Notes under the pieces: generated by a model | Seen by the model: the letters and a program-made list of their open reading frames with translations, nothing else | Told to the model about the DNA's origin: nothing | The model's database searches: none | Made by a program: the position numbers and the translations under genes | In this document: positions 8,039 through 17,878 of the stretch, one piece after another | How positions within the stretch are numbered: position 1 is the stretch's first letter | Layout: each line of letters opens with the position of its first letter | From: Spirochaetota bacterium | Lineage (GTDB): Bacteria > Spirochaetota > Spirochaetia > Treponematales > Rectinemataceae | Reading direction: 5' to 3' | Length of the DNA stretch: 64,000 nucleotides | Assembly: GCA_029265615.1 (NCBI GenBank) | Contig: JAJUIB010000003.1 | Location: 1-64,000, forward strand

Positions 8039-9889
8039 ATGCTTTCCCGACTCGCGGCCCGCCAGGCGGCAACCCTTCTTGCGCGTGCGTCGCTCGCGGC
8101 CGTCATTGCGGGCTTCCTTGCGGCCGCGCTTTTCGCATCCTGCGCATCCGCGCCGGCCCCCGCTGTCCCCTCGGTCTCGGCCGACTCACCTCTGCCCGAG
8201 ACACCCTTTATGGCCGCGAAGCGGAGCGAGGAGCCGCGCGGTGGCGATATGGCTCCGGAAGCCAAAGGCGCCGCGGCTGGCGAATTCGCGTTCAAAGAAG
8301 TCGTGCCGGGCGGCGTCACAGCCTCTAGCTCGCGCGCGGCGCCCAGCCAGTCCGGCCTCAAGGCAGGCTTTTCCGACGACAACGAGCAGTACAACCTCTT
8401 CGTGAAGTTCCTCGAGCAGTACGGCGGCGAGGTCGCCCACAAGATTCTCGATGTGCGCGAGCGCATCCTCCTCAAGGTCCTCGATGCGAAGGAACGTCCC
8501 GTCGCGAATGCCGAGGTGCTTGTGAAGGCTGGAACACGGACGGTCGCCAAGGGGAGAACCTATTCGGACGGCGGCTTCAACCTCTATCCCCGCGACCTTG
8601 CGGGAGCCGCCGATGCTTCCGTCTATCGTGTCGAGGTGAGTGCCGCTGCCGGTAAGGCGGCACTCGAGGTCGACCGCCAAGGTCCGCGTTCCGTCCAAAT
8701 ACGGCTCGGGGCCGAGCGCGCAACGCCTATGCCCCTCCCCGTCGATGTGCTTTTTGTCATGGATACGACGGGTTCCATGGGCGAGGAGATCGAACGCCTC
8801 CGTGCGACGATCGAGATTATCCACACGAACCTTTTGGCGCTGAAGCCGCGGCCTGAAATTCGTTTCGGCCTCGTCCTCTACAAGGACCGCGAGGATGAGT
8901 ATATCACCGAGGTCCACCCCTTTACGGCGAATCTCGAGGCCTTCCAGAAGGTGCTCGACAGGGTCGGCGCCTATGGGGGCGGCGACACGCCCGAGGACCT
9001 GCAAGCGGCGCTCAAGGACGCCGTTCGCGGCATGGCATGGAACAGGGACGGGCTTCGGCTTGCGTTTATTGTCACCGACGCTCCGCCGCAGCTTTACGAG
9101 GATCAGACCTACGATTATGCGGCCGCGGCGCGTGAAGCGAAGGAGAAGGGAATAAAACTCTACACCATCGGCACGGGCGGGCTACCGCTCGATGGCGAGT
9201 ATGTGCTGCGTCAGATCGCGCAATACACGCAGGCCAAGTACATCTTCCTCACCTATGGCGAGGGGGGCGAGAGCGAAGGCGGTAAGGAGGGCTCGGTCTC
9301 CCACCACACAGGCACAAACTTTACCACCGATAAACTCGAGGCCGTCGTCATCCGCTTCGTGAAGGAAGAGATATCCCGTTTCTCCGACAAGCCCCTTGCT
9401 TACGACGAGTCCTTCTACGAGGCGAACAAGGTCGCCGACGAAAGCCGCGAGGACACCCTCGGGAAGCTCTTCGGCGAGGCCCTCAAGAATCTCGCGGACT
9501 ATTCCACCTTCCGCCTGGGACCCGAGACGCGGCTCGCCGTGATGCCCGTCTCTCCGCCTTCCGGGGATGCGGGCGCTGCGCTCGCGGCAACCGCAGAATA
9601 CTTCAGCGCCCAACTTGCACAGGCGGCGGCCGCTTCGAAGCTCTGGACGGTCGTGGAGCGAAAAGACCTCCAAACGGTCCTTAAGGAGCTCGAACTCCAG
9701 CTCTCGGGCCTCGTTGACGAGGAGGCCGCCGCAAAGGTCGGGAGGATCCTTGGTGCCGAGGTCCTTGTCTCCGGCTCTGTGTACCGCAGGGACGAGCGCT
9801 ACGAACTTTTCCTAAAGCTCGTCCGCGTTGAGACTGCGGAGGTTCTTGCGGCGACGAAGGCGCGGATTGATCTCAAGCTCGGTCTCTAG
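8039..9889 (+). CDS. Lipoprotein with vWA domain and CsgG-like C-terminal domain
   Basis: 616-residue predicted lipoprotein. A hydrophobic signal ends in LFASC (lipidated C35), a loose lipobox as in spirochaetes. Residues about 140-225 look like a carboxypeptidase-regulatory/beta-sandwich repeat (LDAKERPVANAEV, GGFNLYP). A von Willebrand factor A domain follows, with a full metal-ion-dependent adhesion site: DTTGS (242-246), T317 in GGDTPED, and D347 in TDAPP. The last 110 residues (AVMPVSPP, VVERKDLQTVLKEL, GAEVLVSGSVYR) resemble the CsgG/FlgO/TolB-N-type fold of outer-membrane assembly lipoproteins. Its function is unknown; an envelope surface or assembly role is likely. Confidence 0.85.
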   Translation: MLSRLAARQAATLLARASLAAVIAGFLAAALFASCASAPAPAVPSVSADSPLPETPFMAAKRSEEPRGGDMAPEAKGAAAGEFAFKEVVPGGVTASSSRAAPSQSGLKAGFSDDNEQYNLFVKFLEQYGGEVAHKILDVRERILLKVLDAKERPVANAEVLVKAGTRTVAKGRTYSDGGFNLYPRDLAGAADASVYRVEVSAAAGKAALEVDRQGPRSVQIRLGAERATPMPLPVDVLFVMDTTGSMGEEIERLRATIEIIHTNLLALKPRPEIRFGLVLYKDREDEYITEVHPFTANLEAFQKVLDRVGAYGGGDTPEDLQAALKDAVRGMAWNRDGLRLAFIVTDAPPQLYEDQTYDYAAAAREAKEKGIKLYTIGTGGLPLDGEYVLRQIAQYTQAKYIFLTYGEGGESEGGKEGSVSHHTGTNFTTDKLEAVVIRFVKEEISRFSDKPLAYDESFYEANKVADESREDTLGKLFGEALKNLADYSTFRLGPETRLAVMPVSPPSGDAGAALAATAEYFSAQLAQAAAASKLWTVVERKDLQTVLKELELQLSGLVDEEAAAKVGRILGAEVLVSGSVYRRDERYELFLKLVRVETAEVLAATKARIDLKLGL

Positions 9890-9897
9890 CGTTCCCG

Positions 9898-9927
9898 TTG
9901 AAGCGACTGCCACGCCTCGGATACGAT
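9898..9927 (+). promoter_or_regulatory. Promoter at the start codon of radA (leaderless)
   Basis: TTGAAG (9898-9903), 18-nt spacer, TACGAT (9922-9927), then 9 nt and ATG 9937. No Shine-Dalgarno site is present. Confidence 0.5.
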
Positions 9928-9936
9928 GTTTTTGTC

Positions 9937-11310
9937 ATGAGCGCCAAAAAGACCCAGACCGTCTATCGTTGTGCGAACTGCGGCCGTGTCGAGCCGCGCT
10001 GGCTCGGGCGTTGCCCGGAGTGCGGTGAGTGGAACAGCCTCCGCGAAGCGGCTGCTACTGAGCTTCGAACCGATCGGGCGGGCGAGAGCTTCCCTCTACC
10101 TATAGCTTCCATCGATCCGGGGCGTGGCGCGCGGATTGCAACGGGCTCTGCGGAGGTGGACCGGGTGCTCGGGGGTGGTCTTATGCGCGGTTCGGCGGTG
10201 CTTATCGGCGGCGAACCGGGAATTGGAAAATCGACGCTTCTCCTCCAGCTCTGCGCCAAGGCGGAGATACAGGGGCGCATCCTCTATGTTTCAGGCGAGG
10301 AATCGCCCGCGCAGATTCGCCTTCGGGCCGACCGGCTCGGCGCACTCCGCGAAAACCTCGAGGTGCTGGCCACGGGCGATCTTGGACGCATTCACGGGGC
10401 GCTCGAGGCGGTGAAGCCGAGCCTCGTTATCATTGACTCGATACAGACGCTCCACGCCGAGGAGGCGGGAGCCGTGCCGGGTACCGCGAACCAGATCAAG
10501 TATTGCGCCCAGGAGCTTGTTGCGTGGGCGAAAGAGCGCGAGGCCGGGCTTTTTCTTGTCGCCCATGTGACCAAGGACGGGCTGATAGCGGGGCCGAAAG
10601 CGGCCGAACATCTTGTCGACGCAGTACTTACGTTTGAGCAGAGCGAGGCGGAGTTCAGGACGCTCCGCGCATCGAAAAACCGCTTTGGAAGCGCCGAGGA
10701 GATCGGAATCTTCCGCATGGGGGACAAGGGGCTCGAGGAGGTCGCGGATCCTTCCGGCCTCTTTCTGGTTCGCCGCGAGGGTGGTTTCCCCGCAGGTGTC
10801 GCCGTGGCGCCGGTGCACGAGGGAAGCCGCGTCCTCCTTGTTGAGATACAGGCGCTGACAGTGCCCGCGAAGGCGGGGCTTACGCGCGTGTATTCCGAGC
10901 GCATCGAATCGGGGCGTGTGGCGCGCGTGGCTGCCGTGCTCGAAAAGCACAGCGGCATGCGATTTTCGGATCAGGACCTCTATGTCAATGTTGCAGGCGG
11001 AATACGGCTTGTGGAGCCTGGCATCGATTTGGCGCTCGCCGCGGCGCTTTATTCGGCCCGCTCCGGCGTTGCGCTTCCGGCGGGCGCGGCGCTAGCGGGG
11101 GAACTTTCGCTCGCCGGCGAGCTCAGACCTGTCAGACAGATGCGCCGCCGCGCGCGAGCGGCGCGATCGCTTGGCCTTGAGCTTGTTCTTGGTCCGGTTT
11201 CGGGCGAGGAGGGCGAGGGGAGGGAGTGGCGCGCCATGCGCGACCTTAAAGAGGCCTTCGCGTGTCTCCTTGGGCGCGCCGATGCCGCGCCTTCTTCCTC
11301 CAAGGGTTAG
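9937..11310 (+). CDS. radA: DNA repair protein RadA (Sms)
   Basis: 457-residue RecA-like ATPase that drives branch migration in recombination and repair. Domains in order: C4 zinc finger (YRCANCG and GRCPECG, about 7-30), RecA-like core with Walker A GGEPGIGKST, the RadA-specific KNRFG motif, and a C-terminal Lon-protease-like domain (about 320-450) that lacks peptidase function in the family. ATG 9937 is chosen because the zinc finger follows directly; the in-frame TTG at 9898 falls on the -35 box. It lies 47 nt after the lipoprotein gene but seems to have its own promoter. Confidence 0.96.
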   Translation: MSAKKTQTVYRCANCGRVEPRWLGRCPECGEWNSLREAAATELRTDRAGESFPLPIASIDPGRGARIATGSAEVDRVLGGGLMRGSAVLIGGEPGIGKSTLLLQLCAKAEIQGRILYVSGEESPAQIRLRADRLGALRENLEVLATGDLGRIHGALEAVKPSLVIIDSIQTLHAEEAGAVPGTANQIKYCAQELVAWAKEREAGLFLVAHVTKDGLIAGPKAAEHLVDAVLTFEQSEAEFRTLRASKNRFGSAEEIGIFRMGDKGLEEVADPSGLFLVRREGGFPAGVAVAPVHEGSRVLLVEIQALTVPAKAGLTRVYSERIESGRVARVAAVLEKHSGMRFSDQDLYVNVAGGIRLVEPGIDLALAAALYSARSGVALPAGAALAGELSLAGELRPVRQMRRRARAARSLGLELVLGPVSGEEGEGREWRAMRDLKEAFACLLGRADAAPSSSKG

Positions 11311-11329
11311 CCGAGGTGAATGCGGGGTT

Positions 11330-11343
11330 ATAAACCGGTTTAT
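11330..11343. promoter_or_regulatory. 14-bp palindrome upstream of malQ, candidate LacI-family operator
   Basis: ATAAACCGGTTTAT is a perfect palindrome with the central CG and AAAC/GTTT arms typical of LacI/GalR-family operators. It lies upstream of a TATACT -10 box (11372-11377), its centre about 47 nt before the likely start site of malQ. No LacI-family regulator gene is in the window. Confidence 0.45.
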
Positions 11344-11397
11344 GGACTTCCTTTTCTTCCTCTGCTCAGCCTATACTACGTGCGAGGGGAGGTTCGT

Positions 11398-13488
11398 ATG
11401 AAGTTCGCCCATGCCGGAAGCCGTATCAGCGGCATTGTCGTCCCACTCTCCGCCTTGCGCAGCCATCAGAGTCCTGCCTGCGGCGAATATCCCGATCTTG
11501 CCATCCTTGGAAACCTCGCCGCGGACTGGAATTTCGAGCTTGTCCAACTCCTCCCGGTCAACGATTCGGGATATCAAAGCTCGCCGTATTCGGCGCTCTC
11601 CGCCTTTGCCCTTCACCCGATCTACCTCAGGGTTGCCGAACTTCCTGAAGTGGCCTGCAAGGAGGGTATCGCCCTTGTGCGGGCCGCGGCGGAGCTCGCT
11701 GCGCTTCACGCAGACGATGAGCGCTTCCGCTACGGTCCGTACCTTCATGCGAAACTTGCGATTCTCGAACGGGTATTTCGCGAGCTTGCCGCCCCGCGAC
11801 TCGGCCTTGTTCTGCGTTCCGACACTGCGCAAGTGTCGACCGAGTCAGTACCGATTCAGCTGGCAAAGACAGGCCCTGATGCCGAAACCTTCGCGCGCTG
11901 GATTTCGGCGCACCCCTGGGTCAAGGCCTACGCAGTGTTTTCCGAGCTTAAACGCCGTAATGGCGGCAAGCCCTGGTGGGAATGGGAAGCCGAGCGGGAC
12001 CCATCGCCTCAGCGCATTGAGGAACTCTGGCTTTCGCCTGATCTTCTTGCGGGCACGCGCTTCCGTGCCTGGCTTCAGTGGCGCGCCGAGGAACAATTCG
12101 TCCATGCCGCGCGTGCGCTCCATGCCTCCGGTATCGATCTCATGGGCGATATCCCCATCCTTATCAACGAGGACTCCGCCGAGGTGTGGGCGCGTCGCTC
12201 CCTCTTTCGGCTTGGACTTTCCGCCGGCGCGCCGCCTGACATGTATGCGCAGCTTGGTCAAAACTGGGGCTTTCCGATCTACGACTGGGATGCGCTCGCC
12301 AGGGAGGGATACGGATTCTGGCGCGAGCGCCTTGCCGCCGCAAGCACATTCTACACCGCCTACCGCATCGACCATGTGCTCGGATTTTTCCGCATCTGGG
12401 CCCTCTCGGTGTGCGAGCGCACGGGCTACCTCGGACGCTTTGTGCCGGATGCCTACATCACGCGCGACGAGCTTGCGGCGCGCGGATTTTCTCCCGAGCG
12501 GATACGCTGGCTTTCCGAGCCCCATCTGCGCACCGAAGGCCTTATCCGCGCGTCGGGCGGGGATCAGACCGCGGCCTTCGAGTCCGCACTCTGCGTCCTC
12601 GATCGGATCGGCGACGAGGAGCTGTTTCTTTTCAAGCGGACGATCCGCGGCGAGCGTGACATCGAGACGCTTGCCGAGGTGGGGCAGCCCGGGTATGGCG
12701 GAGCGGGCTTTCCCGCCTCCCTCCGTGATTTCCTTCTTGCATCATGGCGCGATCGTGTCCTCTTCGAGTTCGAGCCTGAGCGCTATGCGGCCGCCTGGCG
12801 CTACCGCGAGGCGAGCGCCTGGTCGAGCCTTTCGACGGGTGAACAGGAGGCGCTTGAGGAACTCTTCCGTAGTAAGCGAGCCGAGGGCGAAAGGCTCTGG
12901 GACGAGGCGGGGCGCAAAATCCTCGGAATGCTCTGTGCATCGAGCGACATGCTCCCCTGCGCCGAAGACCTCGGTTCGGTGCCGCCCTGTGTGCCGCAGG
13001 CGCTTGCCGACCTTGGCATTCTCGGCCTGCGTGTCCTCCGCTGGACGCGGGAGTGGGGGAAGCCGGGCGATCCCTATGTGCCGCTTGCGTCTTATCCTGA
13101 GCTTTCTGTCGCCTGTCCCTCTGTCCATGATTCGTCTACGCTCCGCGAGTGGTGGGAGCGCGAGGCGGACCGCGATGCGGTCTGGGCGCTCGTCGGCGGC
13201 GAGGGATCTGCACCCCCGCGGCTTGAGCCCGAAGTAGCCGCCTGCATTTTGGGCGCCCTTGCGCGTTCGGCTTCGCGCATTGTCGCCTTCCCCCTTCAAG
13301 ACCTCTTGGCCTTGGGGCGGGCGTTCCGAAGTGCCGATCCTGCCGCAGAGCGGATCAATGTGCCGGGCTCGGTGAATGAATGGAACTGGGGCTGGCGGCT
13401 TCCCGCGACACTTGAAGCGATTGCGGCTGATCGCACTCTTGCCGAAGCGACGCGAGGCCTTGCCGGCCTGCGCCGTCTTAGGGCCTGA
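11398..13488 (+). CDS. malQ: 4-alpha-glucanotransferase (GH77, amylomaltase)
   Basis: 696-residue GH77 enzyme that moves alpha-1,4-glucan segments between maltodextrins. The catalytic nucleophile is D325 in YRIDHVLGFFRIW. The acid/base Glu lies in CAEDLGSVPP and the third acidic residue in HDSST. The donor-site segment with DIPILINEDSAEVWARR and the 'PPD..GQNWGFPIYDW' region of the family are intact. Start chosen at ATG 11398 because GAGGGGAGG sits at 11384-11392, 6 nt upstream. A TATACT box at 11372-11377 and a LacI-type palindrome upstream suggest carbon-source control. It likely acts in glycogen or maltodextrin turnover. Confidence 0.94.
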   Translation: MKFAHAGSRISGIVVPLSALRSHQSPACGEYPDLAILGNLAADWNFELVQLLPVNDSGYQSSPYSALSAFALHPIYLRVAELPEVACKEGIALVRAAAELAALHADDERFRYGPYLHAKLAILERVFRELAAPRLGLVLRSDTAQVSTESVPIQLAKTGPDAETFARWISAHPWVKAYAVFSELKRRNGGKPWWEWEAERDPSPQRIEELWLSPDLLAGTRFRAWLQWRAEEQFVHAARALHASGIDLMGDIPILINEDSAEVWARRSLFRLGLSAGAPPDMYAQLGQNWGFPIYDWDALAREGYGFWRERLAAASTFYTAYRIDHVLGFFRIWALSVCERTGYLGRFVPDAYITRDELAARGFSPERIRWLSEPHLRTEGLIRASGGDQTAAFESALCVLDRIGDEELFLFKRTIRGERDIETLAEVGQPGYGGAGFPASLRDFLLASWRDRVLFEFEPERYAAAWRYREASAWSSLSTGEQEALEELFRSKRAEGERLWDEAGRKILGMLCASSDMLPCAEDLGSVPPCVPQALADLGILGLRVLRWTREWGKPGDPYVPLASYPELSVACPSVHDSSTLREWWEREADRDAVWALVGGEGSAPPRLEPEVAACILGALARSASRIVAFPLQDLLALGRAFRSADPAAERINVPGSVNEWNWGWRLPATLEAIAADRTLAEATRGLAGLRRLRA

Positions 13489-13561
13489 AGTCGATCTTGC
13501 AACGCGGGCGATAGCGCGGTGCCGCCCCATGCAGTACAATTAAACCCCGAGAGGAGGCTGC

Positions 13562-15148
13562 ATGGCGGGCGCGCTACGGGCGGGGGGCATGATACTGGGG
13601 GCGCTTCCCGCAAGCGGCACCGAAGAGACGCTCGAGCGATACCTTGACGCGGGCATTGTCTCGCTGCTCGTTCCCAGTGATCTTGCCGCTGATCCCGAGC
13701 GCCTTCGCACGCTCGCTTGCAAGGCGCGCGAGGGGGCCCGTGCGCGCGGACTTCCGCCAGTCCTCTTTGCGCTCGGGGGGGCGCGAGATCTGTGCGGCGC
13801 GCCCGAATTACCCGGCTTTCCACATCCGCTCGGACTTGCGGCATCAGGTGACAAGGCGCTTGCGCTTAAGGCGGGCCGACTTCTTGCGCAAAGGCTTCGT
13901 GCGTGCGGCGTCGATCTGATTTTCGCGCCGCGGTTCGACCTTGCCAGCGACCCCAAACGCGCGCTCGGCATTCTCGAGCTTTTTGGCGAAGACCCTGAAC
14001 GTAGCGCCGCGATGGCGCTCGCATATGCCCGCGGCCTTGCCTCTGGCGGAGTGCTCCCCTGCGGCGCCTGTTTTCCTGGTTGCGGGTTTCTCGCCACGGA
14101 GGGACGACAGGGACCGCCGCTCGTGCCTTTTCCTTTTGAGCGGCTTTCGAGCGTTGAGTCGCGTCCTTTTGCGCGCGCGGTGAAGGCGAGGCTTCCCGCC
14201 ATCCTTGTAGGCCGCGTTCTTGTCCCGGCGCTCGAGCCTGAGCGTGTGCCTGCGGCACGGAGCGCCCGCGTGATTGAGGGGCGACTACGGCGGGATCTCG
14301 GCTTCACAGGCCTCTGCATCGGTGCGAAGCTCGATGACGACCCTGCGGGCGTGGCGAGGGCGGCGGTGCTCGGCGCACTCGCCGGGGCGGATATGACCGT
14401 GGCCGCGGAACCCCATGCGGCGATCACCGCGGCCGCAGCGCTTGAACGTGCGCTTGAGGCGGGGGAGCTTCCTGCTCCGCGGGTTGCCGTTGCGCTCGCT
14501 CGCCGCGAGCGGCTTGTCGCGCAACGTGAGGGCCTCCGCGCCGCGGAGAGATCGCGCATCGTGCCCGGCCTCGAAGCTTTGTCTTTGCGGGCGGCCCTTC
14601 GTGCCGCTACTGTCTTTCGCGCCGCAAAGGCCCGCGGGAAGCGGGCTTTTGCCGCGAAGGCAAAAGGGGCCGCAGGGCCACGGGCGAGGGAGTTTCCGCT
14701 GTCAGCCTTGCCGCGGCTCGTGCTCGTTGCGCTTCCGCCTTCGCACGACCCCGATACCGGAGCTGTGCCTGCTGTGCTCGAGGCGCTCTCCCGTGAGCTT
14801 CCTGCGGCGCAGCTTGTGCCTATCGCCGCCGACCCGGGCCTTGCGGAGGGCGAGGCGCTTGTCCGTCTCGCGGGCGAGGTAGGCGGGCCTGCGCTTGCCC
14901 TGACCTACGATGCGCATCGGCATCCCCGTCAGGAGAGCCTTGTTCACCTCCTTGAGGAGAGTGTCGCCGAGGTTGCCGTGATTGCGATGCGCGATCCTTA
15001 CGACGCGGCGTTTTTTCCGCGAGCGGCCGCCCGTGCCGCGGTCTATGGCTTTGCGCCGGCCCAGATGCGCGCCGCGGTGGCGCTCGTGCGAGGCGATATC
15101 GCGGGGCGGGGAGTCTGTCCCGTCTCTGTCCTCGGACTCGAGGTCTGA
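13562..15148 (+). CDS. GH3-like (NagZ/BglX fold) protein without catalytic residues
   Basis: 528-residue protein with a GH3 N-terminal barrel (about 1-330) and a GH3 C-terminal-like alpha/beta domain (about 375-525). The family motif KHFPGHG is present as ACFPGCG (169-175), so the Lys and both His are lost. In the nucleophile motif the usual S-D-D is G-A-K (254-256), so the Asp is replaced by A255. The DSH loop of NagZ is also absent. The frame is intact with a GAGGAGG Shine-Dalgarno, so it is not an obvious pseudogene; more likely a binding protein or an enzyme with changed chemistry. No signal peptide is visible. TACAAT at 13535-13540 may be its -10 box. Confidence 0.75.
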   Translation: MAGALRAGGMILGALPASGTEETLERYLDAGIVSLLVPSDLAADPERLRTLACKAREGARARGLPPVLFALGGARDLCGAPELPGFPHPLGLAASGDKALALKAGRLLAQRLRACGVDLIFAPRFDLASDPKRALGILELFGEDPERSAAMALAYARGLASGGVLPCGACFPGCGFLATEGRQGPPLVPFPFERLSSVESRPFARAVKARLPAILVGRVLVPALEPERVPAARSARVIEGRLRRDLGFTGLCIGAKLDDDPAGVARAAVLGALAGADMTVAAEPHAAITAAAALERALEAGELPAPRVAVALARRERLVAQREGLRAAERSRIVPGLEALSLRAALRAATVFRAAKARGKRAFAAKAKGAAGPRAREFPLSALPRLVLVALPPSHDPDTGAVPAVLEALSRELPAAQLVPIAADPGLAEGEALVRLAGEVGGPALALTYDAHRHPRQESLVHLLEESVAEVAVIAMRDPYDAAFFPRAAARAAVYGFAPAQMRAAVALVRGDIAGRGVCPVSVLGLEV

Positions 15149-15203: not shown

Positions 15204-15233
15204 TTGACACATGCGGAATGCGAAGGCTAGATT
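15204..15233 (+). promoter_or_regulatory. Promoter at the start codon of the Gate-domain gene (leaderless)
   Basis: A full-consensus TTGACA (15204-15209), 18-nt spacer, TAGATT (15228-15233), then 9 nt and ATG 15243. No Shine-Dalgarno site. Confidence 0.65.
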
Positions 15234-16307: not shown

Positions 16308-17267
16308 TCATGCACCGGAAAAGAGAAGCCATTGCGCGAGGATCGCCGCACTCGAGACCAGCCCCGTGGCTTCTAGCGCGCTCATGAGCGCGCACAAGGC
16401 GGCGGCGACAAAGCGCGGAGTCGTTCCACCGCGGTGGCGGAGGAGGGGTGGTGCGGCGAGAAAAAGCGCAAGGACAAGCCAGAACGCCGCGCCGATGAGG
16501 CGGACCGCGGTCGCTGCGCTGACGGTCGCCTCTTTGAGAGCGAAGCCGGCCCGTGCGGCGAGGGCCGAAACCGTGCCCAAGCGCCCCAGCGCCATTGCGG
16601 CGCCGAGGAGGATGAGTAGGAGTCCCGACGCGAGCCGGATGGCGCGTGCACGCTGTTTGAAAAAGTTCATGAGCGGTGACAGCCGGTCGAGGAACACCCC
16701 CGTCGCGATAAAGGGCAGGGCGAGGCCGAGCGAATAGGCGAGAAGCAGCACGGCGGCGCGGAGTGCACTCCCCTCGCGGGCGGCAAGAAAGAGTATCGAG
16801 GCGAGTATGGGGCCGACGCAGGGCGACCAGCCTGCGCCGAAGACAAGCCCGACGCCGAATGCACCCGCGAGACTCCGTGGCGCCGATCCGGGATGGATGC
16901 GCGTCTCGCGGTTGAGGAACTTTGCGAAATCGAAGATGAAGTTGAGGCCGAGGAGGGCGACCGTTACGCCCGCGACGATCGACAAGGTCCGAGACAAACC
17001 TCCGAGAAGAAGTGCGCCGCCCGAGAACACGAGGCCGAGCGCGGCGAACACGAGCGAAAACCCTGCGGAAAAGGCGAGACTTCGGAGAAGGAGGCGGCCG
17101 CGTCCCCGCCCGGCGCGAATATCGCCGATGCCATAGCCCGAGAGAAAGGACAGATATCCCGGGATGAGGGGGAGCACGCAGGGAGAGAGGAACGAGAGTA
17201 TGCCGGCGAAAAACGCCGTACCAAAGCCCGGCACATCGAGGGGCAGAGTTCCAGGCGCGCTGTTCAT
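16308..17267 (-). CDS. ccdA: CcdA-type thiol:disulfide transporter
   Basis: 319-residue polytopic membrane protein of the CcdA/DsbD-beta family that moves reducing equivalents from cytosolic thioredoxin across the membrane. The two redox Cys lie in SPCVLPLIPGYLSFLSG (about residue 30) and GWSPCVGP (about 150), each at the start of one three-helix half. It overlaps the upstream tlpA stop by 4 bp (ATGA), so the two are translationally coupled. TlpA is the natural periplasmic electron acceptor. The C-terminal 100 residues add two to three extra hydrophobic segments beyond the minimal CcdA. Confidence 0.9.
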   Translation of the reverse strand: MNSAPGTLPLDVPGFGTAFFAGILSFLSPCVLPLIPGYLSFLSGYGIGDIRAGRGRGRLLLRSLAFSAGFSLVFAALGLVFSGGALLLGGLSRTLSIVAGVTVALLGLNFIFDFAKFLNRETRIHPGSAPRSLAGAFGVGLVFGAGWSPCVGPILASILFLAAREGSALRAAVLLLAYSLGLALPFIATGVFLDRLSPLMNFFKQRARAIRLASGLLLILLGAAMALGRLGTVSALAARAGFALKEATVSAATAVRLIGAAFWLVLALFLAAPPLLRHRGGTTPRFVAAALCALMSALEATGLVSSAAILAQWLLFSGA

Positions 17268-17878
17268 CGCCGTGCCAGCTCGCCGAGGATTTCGAGCATC
17301 GCAGGGCTGTCGTATTCCCGCGATCCGACGTAGCCTGCGATGATTCGGCCTGTTTTATCCACGATATAGGTGGTCGGAATGCTCCGTGCGCCGAATTTCG
17401 CGCCGATGCTACCTGAGCGATCGAGGTAGACGGGGAAGCGGAATTTCTCACGGGCGATAAAATCAGCAACGGTTTTCCGCTCCTCGCCGACGCTTATCGC
17501 CATCACCGTGAAGGCCTTGCCTGCAAGCTTGTCCGCAAGTCGCTGGATTGAGGGCATCTCCTGTCTGCAGGGTGGGCACCACGTCGCCCAAAAATTGAGG
17601 AGAACGACGCTCCCGCGTTCCGCCGACAAGCTACGTGTCGTGGCCTTTGCGCCGGGCGGCGAGGTGAGTGGCTCAACCGAAAAGTCGCCTGCCTCGACGG
17701 GGGAGGGAAAGACGTAAAAGCCGAGTTTTTCAAGGCCGTCGGTGTACCAGGCGCGTTCGGCGGCACTGGGAGAGGGTGGCGAGGAGGTTTTGGCTGGGGC
17801 GGCGACCGCGAAAGCCCCTCCGCACAGGAGCATCACCGTCAGGACGAGAAACAGGGGACCATGGGTTTTTTGCGTCAC
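17264..17878 (-). CDS. tlpA: TlpA/ResA-like exported thioredoxin
   Basis: 204-residue thiol-disulfide oxidoreductase. A signal peptide (about 1-26, ending AVAAPA) exports it to the periplasm. The thioredoxin fold carries the active site WATWCPPCRQEMP (CPPC 101-104) and the cis-Pro in RSIPTTYIVD. It likely reduces envelope disulfides with electrons from CcdA. AGGAGG precedes its start. No cytochrome c maturation genes are nearby, so the client is unknown. Confidence 0.93.
   Translation of the reverse strand: MTQKTHGPLFLVLTVMLLCGGAFAVAAPAKTSSPPSPSAAERAWYTDGLEKLGFYVFPSPVEAGDFSVEPLTSPPGAKATTRSLSAERGSVVLLNFWATWCPPCRQEMPSIQRLADKLAGKAFTVMAISVGEERKTVADFIAREKFRFPVYLDRSGSIGAKFGARSIPTTYIVDKTGRIIAGYVGSREYDSPAMLEILGELARR

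Follow-up and report, generated by a model that had tools for sequence, protein, structure and literature searches.

The locus analyzed here raises the question of how a protein that still belongs to a family of sugar-cleaving enzymes can be maintained in a bacterial lineage after its catalytic center has been dismantled, and what such a protein might do instead. The gene, denominated psGH3 in the following, lies on a stretch of 64,000 nucleotides from a Spirochaetota bacterium (the window). An earlier note, made from the letters of this stretch, had described an intact frame with a good Shine-Dalgarno site, and the frame indeed starts with ATG, encodes 528 amino acids with zero internal stops (read directly) and is preceded by GAGGAGG. 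Its product matches the GH3 N-terminal domain (Pfam PF00933) with E=2.5e-33 and a score of 116 bits, the cut-off being 27. The best sequence match with a solved structure is 6k5j (4.6e-35), and the solved matches are beta-N-acetylglucosaminidases; the threshold of the NCBIfam equivalog PRK05337 (NagZ) is missed (75 bits vs 207). With a barrel above the curated cut-off and both domains of its predicted model superposing on solved GH3 structures, psGH3 is a GH3 member by descent and fold, namely a full-length two-domain protein of the beta-N-acetylglucosaminidase (NagZ) type. The motifs DAHxxPxQE and DPYDxAFFP occur in the C-terminal domain of all eight orthologues that reach this domain. Coordinates of all features discussed are collected in the table.

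Table. Features of the psGH3 locus (positions in the window; residue numbers refer to the psGH3 protein)
Feature	Position	Strand	Basis
radA/sms	9898..11310	+	TIGR00416, E=1.1e-127, over cut-off
malQ, 4-alpha-glucanotransferase (GH77)	11320..13488	+	PF02446, E=1.1e-112; directly upstream in 9/9 psGH3 genomes
Shine-Dalgarno-like GAGGAGG, upstream of psGH3 ATG	13551..13557	+	read directly
psGH3, two-domain GH3 pseudoenzyme, 528 aa	13562..15148	+	Pfam PF00933, AlphaFold2 model, structure superposition
ALGG (residues 70-73) at the place of IDQEGG, with a three-residue deletion that includes the pocket Asp	13769..13780	+	alignment
E139 replacing invariant Arg of RSFG	13976..13978	+	41/41 catalytic rows have Arg; clade has E, D or G
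C167, sole clade-invariant Cys (9/9), two residues before lost Lys	14060..14062	+	alignment
ACFPGCG (169-175) replacing KHFPGHG	14066..14086	+	read directly, alignment
E-G-R (180-182) replacing acid/base dyad D-S-H	14099..14107	+	alignment
R218 replacing invariant His of A-H motif	14213..14215	+	His in 41/41 catalytic rows; Arg in 9/9 clade members
G-A-K (254-256) replacing [S/T]-D-x, nucleophile position A255	14321..14329	+	read directly, alignment
C-terminal alpha/beta domain of psGH3, approximately residues 385-528	14714..15145	+	model, orthologue alignment
Promoter-like TTGACA-18-TAGATT, between psGH3 and memb345	15204..15233	+	10/12 matches; weak
memb345, putative membrane protein, 345 aa	15243..16280	+	hydrophobic stretches by eye; directly downstream in 8/8 psGH3 genomes with continuing contig

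In order to define what has been lost, the nine sequences of the psGH3 clade were aligned with 41 catalytic-type GH3 sequences, chosen from 63 distinct GH3s (64 rows, with one gene present twice; the alignment did not include the remaining 22). The motif KH[FY]PG is found in all 64 of these other rows and the [S/T]-D motif in 63, with L082 giving no pattern match. In the window protein both motifs are altered as the earlier note had read them, to ACFPGCG and to G-A-K with Ala at the nucleophile position. The pocket Asp of IDQEGG, present in 41/41 catalytic rows, is deleted in 9/9 clade members, and the Arg at position 139 (41/41) has become Asp or Glu in eight of the nine. Lys and the first His of KHFPG are each found in 41/41 catalytic rows and the second motif His in 40/41. 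The dyad His (41/41 vs 0/9) and the Met four residues past the nucleophile (41/41 vs 0/9) have disappeared completely, and the dyad Asp (41/41 vs 4/9) and the nucleophile Asp (41/41 vs 5/9) in part. Altogether the pocket Asp, Arg, Lys, all four His and Met are kept by no clade member. In RmNag, Asp80, Arg149, Lys179, His192, Met229, Asp268 and Met297 of the pocket are described as binding GlcNAc or taking part in catalysis (PMC4680927), and the same is stated for the counterparts of the lost residues in a Rhodothermus enzyme (PMC6987092). At the positions of the subsite -1 Asp, Arg, Lys and His, the window protein has a deletion, E139, A169 and C170, respectively. Chance or sequencing error can be set aside, since Lys, Arg, His and the pocket Asp are likewise missing from the eight orthologues, each of which comes from a different genome.

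Among 16 polar or Met positions that are at least 95% conserved in the 41 catalytic rows, ten are kept by none of the clade members and just three, D126, S234 and D277, are unchanged throughout the clade; of 27 non-polar positions at the same level, 15 are identical in 9/9, including 13 of 20 Gly, Pro or Ala. Nine former functional positions were tested for conservation within the clade, and eight of them have a pairwise identity of 0.11-0.43 compared with a protein mean of 0.49, position 218 being the only invariant one. New and invariant in the clade are D130 (9/9; Asn in 34/41 catalytic rows), R218, C167, G136 and G254. K132 was also considered as a new clade residue and rejected; it is invariant in the clade but occurs in 7/41 catalytic rows. 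Other invariant residues of the clade include E239, R241, D450 and E458. Another GH3 of the window's genome (L002, G000:C7:41258-42220) has a diverged KHFPGNAG and a VDPH with Lys, His and TDD kept; it is placed on a very long branch (2.49) and may represent a GH3 of unusual specificity.

The eight orthologues were found among 58 relatives searched, with E values of 8e-53 or better vs 7.5e-32 for the next matches, and they share 44-58% identity with the window protein. Carriers comprise 9/30 genomes examined of one spirochaete family, distributed over 6/14 genera, and the gene is missing from the remaining 21. All nine frames are open (the copy of G005 ends at a contig edge), and in the G003 protein about 25 extra residues are inserted past the nucleophile motif. 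When a profile was run against 392 genomes sampled from the phylum, with at most three candidates scored per genome, 119 of them had matches at E<=1e-30; the window's own match reached 4.9e-212 and the next 4e-54, and the 29 best other loci all have KH[FY]PG. The nine psGH3 sequences form one clade (support 100 with nine rows, 100/100 with eight rows) whose stem has a length of about 2 changes per site. They group with two-domain enzymes from bacteria of their own family, order and class, a weak placement (83/80) that the long stem makes unsure. On the malQ tree the psGH3-less G010 forms a long branch nested within the carriers, which takes two changes, and on the radA tree (216 columns) it is the sister of the carriers. 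A single gain of psGH3 would be the simplest account of this distribution.

The nine sequences also suggest an order of loss. Nucleophile changes were counted on a tree built without column 255, and within the clade this column needs three of them, to A in G000 (the window's genome) and G001, to E in G003 and to G in G017; the losses other than that of the nucleophile are common to all nine. The simplest reading would be that sugar contacts and the acid/base His were lost first on the long stem, and that the nucleophile Asp drifted later and repeatedly. Repeated change of the nucleophile is the pattern expected if catalysis no longer matters.

The two cysteines in ACFPGCG had been suggested as a possible basis of new chemistry in place of the histidines. 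This idea finds no support in the alignment. At the first motif-His position the clade has Arg in six members and Cys, Ser and Ala in one each, with Cys only in the window protein, and at the second position Cys in 4/9 and Leu in 5/9. As neither Cys is clade-wide, cysteines at the former His sites are best understood as lineage drift and not as a common device. Cysteine chemistry in general was rejected as well, because only C167 is invariant and among the 41 catalytic rows one, L017 (ASCAKHFPG), has a Cys in the same column.

Despite these losses the fold appears to be retained. The AlphaFold2 model based on 50 rows has a pLDDT of 90.6 and a pTM of 0.92, values to be read with the proviso that the catalytic rows in this alignment may pull the model towards the family fold; it supersedes an earlier nine-row model with poor loops (pLDDT 73.5). 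Superposed on PDB 6k5j it gives Z 41.6 and an rmsd of 3.0 Å over 496 aligned residues. Its first strand starts at residue 11. The chain would thus open directly with the barrel and leave a signal peptide no room, and psGH3 is presumably cytoplasmic. For four pairs of orthologues the dN/dS ratio is 0.25, 0.18, 0.35 and 0.40 in psGH3 (rough values, since synonymous sites are near saturation), and for the same pairs 0.26, 0.19, 0.29 and 0.29 in malQ and 0.38, 0.33, 0.20 and 0.52 in memb345, again with synonymous sites near saturation; psGH3 lies above malQ in two of the four. As judged from these sequence comparisons, psGH3 is under purifying selection. With nine orthologues in open frames, selection of this kind, a confidently predicted fold and pocket residues lost in 9/9, the earlier proposal of a maintained GH3 pseudoenzyme is upheld, and we are highly confident that psGH3 has no means for GH3 catalysis or NagZ-type GlcNAc binding and is maintained nevertheless.

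In all nine carriers psGH3 comes directly after malQ. The distance between malQ and psGH3 ranges from -4 to 100 bp and is at most 12 bp in 4/9 genomes; start codons for this measurement were chosen by us, so that two overlaps (G015, G005) are tentative. The two genes may be co-transcribed. The downstream gene memb345 gave no match in a Pfam search, and NCBIfam PRK10519 was reached only far below its cut-off; in its poorly resolved tree the window copy has the longest root-to-tip distance (1.95 vs 0.21-1.22 in eight relatives). Upstream of malQ, radA is present in 8/9 psGH3 genomes, in some of them 1.3-1.7 kb away, and was not found in G005, and clpP and purC follow nearby in 5/8 of the psGH3-region stretches examined. 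The gene malQ itself occurs in 28/30 genomes of the family, including 19/21 of those without psGH3. In all 18 testable psGH3-less relatives malQ and memb345 are direct neighbors, with -47 to 339 bp between the malQ stop and the memb345 match (some at contig ends or in pieces). In the genomes compared, psGH3 is one gene at one site in one group. Promoter-like sites in the 8.5-kb region number 2, with 1.0 (sd 1.3) expected, and a terminator scan returned 10 sites with 9.1 expected.

Further genes accompany this block. Upstream of radA (8039-9889) a protein is encoded whose VWA and CsgG-like domains each score above the Pfam cut-off, and a 67%-identical relative is located near radA in G004. In the window, as in some relatives, the block contains ccdA/DsbD-like and thioredoxin-like genes (16308-17878, minus strand), which were not found in the stretches examined of G002, G008 and G017. 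In G010 (C114, L086) malQ stands beside memb345 without psGH3. Among ten malQ genes compared, that of G010 is the fastest (root-to-tip 0.93 vs 0.39-0.57), and the G010 radA is not fast (0.27 vs 0.29-0.42); loss of a partner could be the cause of the fast malQ in this single case.

Because catalytic and GlcNAc-binding residues are absent, protein binding and a rebuilt ligand site are the options that remain. As the best explanation, put forward tentatively and with somewhat less than even confidence, we suggest that psGH3 is a conserved cytoplasmic GH3 pseudoenzyme acting as a non-catalytic partner, with MalQ as the first candidate. The ancestor would have been a two-domain GH3 beta-N-acetylglucosaminidase whose sugar pocket and acid/base His disappeared along a single long stem branch. 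The protein, by then presumably devoid of glycosidase activity, would have been kept as a folded cytoplasmic scaffold that most likely binds another protein. By analogy with plant ISA2, psGH3 might then tune the activity of MalQ, its assembly or its targeting to alpha-glucan. In plants, ISA1 is reported to bind its non-catalytic paralogue ISA2 (PMC12510319). Protein binding is the preferred option, with MalQ as the first partner to consider, since the two genes are neighbors and nearly abut in 4/9 genomes. This neighborhood is weak evidence for such a partnership because the unrelated radA, clpP and purC also stay near, and MalQ needs no psGH3 in general, as psGH3 is present in only 9 of the 30 family genomes, far fewer than have malQ. 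Counted against this explanation are also the two pairs with dN/dS above that of malQ and the retention of the dyad Asp in 4/9 and of the nucleophile Asp in 5/9 members.

The main alternative, which we consider unlikely, is that the pocket has been refitted, so that the mouth of the barrel binds another ligand or bears new chemistry through R218, D130, C167 and the acid at 139; psGH3 would then be a sensor or a different type of enzyme. The new invariant residues D130, C167, R218, G136 and G254 and the change of Arg to Asp/Glu at 139 fit this reading. They have to be weighed against the low identity of eight of nine former functional positions, which stay below the protein mean, against the absence of any invariant Cys/His/Asp set resembling a known catalytic device, and against the catalytic relative L017, which already has Cys at 167. 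A related and rather improbable proposal connects such a site with MalQ: the GH3 barrel would serve as an allosteric module whose rebuilt mouth (R218, D130, acid at 139, C167) recognizes not GlcNAc but some different ligand, e.g. alpha-glucan or a sugar phosphate, and signals to MalQ.

The earlier suggestion of a sensor for sugars or muropeptides is very unlikely in the form of GlcNAc or muropeptide recognition without cutting through the old NagZ pocket. The fold is kept in psGH3, and precedents for GH3-domain pseudoenzyme sensors exist in Ngs1 (PMC5063960) and in NAG3/NGS1 of T. reesei (PMC12954445). Ngs1 of Candida albicans, however, is reported to require D74, R145 and K175-H176 in order to function, with K175-H176 needed to bind GlcNAc (PMC5063960), and the Asp, Arg and Lys-His matching them, which hold GlcNAc in published structures, are absent from 9/9 psGH3 proteins.

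That psGH3 is still a glycoside hydrolase with relocated catalytic residues has hardly any probability left. The nucleophile position still holds Asp in 5/9 proteins, so that the alignment check named in the earlier note, a nucleophile Asp and His displaced to nearby positions, gave a mixed outcome: these five lack Lys, Arg, the motif His and the dyad His, and in the window protein the position is Ala, with no conserved replacement found nearby. An acid follows five positions later in 7/9, including D260 of the window protein, and was rejected as a displaced nucleophile since neither it nor any His is invariant. Furthermore, Lys, Arg, both motif His, the dyad His and the pocket Asp are lost in 9/9, the barrel has no invariant His and the nucleophile column changed three times. 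A decaying, functionless gene kept by chance is the least probable of all, for the long stem and the absence from 21/30 family genomes stand against nine open frames over six genera (one at a contig end), retained structural residues and a dN/dS of 0.18-0.40.

The preferred reading of psGH3 as a non-catalytic partner can be compared with known systems. The closest are the two-domain GH3 beta-N-acetylglucosaminidases of Paenibacillus FPU-7 (6k5j), Rhizomucor (RmNag, 4zm6) and B. subtilis (NagZ/YbbD, 3bmx), with which the psGH3 model shares its overall fold and the order of its domains (Z 40-42 with 483-496 residues aligned) as well as FPGxG, AP/GP-xxD and PAxxS; in contrast with them the window protein is without nucleophile, dyad His and the subsite -1 Asp, Arg, Lys and His. 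Ngs1 and the T. reesei NAG3/NGS1 resemble psGH3 in keeping a GH3 fold without catalytic residues (PMC5063960, PMC12954445). Ngs1 retains GlcNAc-binding residues and a GNAT domain, and psGH3 has neither. With ISA2 it has in common that an inactive, conserved relative of glycosidases would be bound to an alpha-glucan enzyme, a functional analogy only; ISA2 is a GH13 protein and a paralogue of its partner with reported binding to ISA1 (PMC12510319), whereas psGH3 belongs to GH3 and would bind MalQ by our inference.

Pseudoenzymes are common, and GH3 pseudoenzymes are already known from fungi. In the literature searched, with most subscription papers outside reach, the only GH3 pseudoenzymes met were those of the fungal Ngs1/NAG3 kind, thought to bind GlcNAc, and a GH3 clade from bacteria whose pocket had been erased was not encountered. 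The locus thus presents a bacterial lineage that keeps the GH3 fold while erasing its sugar contacts, and its nine orthologues suggest the order in which these were lost. If MalQ is the partner, psGH3 would correspond in bacteria to the inactive subunits known from the starch enzymes of plants, and if the barrel works as an allosteric module, a type of enzyme formerly engaged in cell-wall recycling would now regulate bacterial glycogen or maltodextrin metabolism. For these spirochaetes it also means that family matches alone would lead to a glycosidase label, by which recycling of chitin or peptidoglycan would be overstated.
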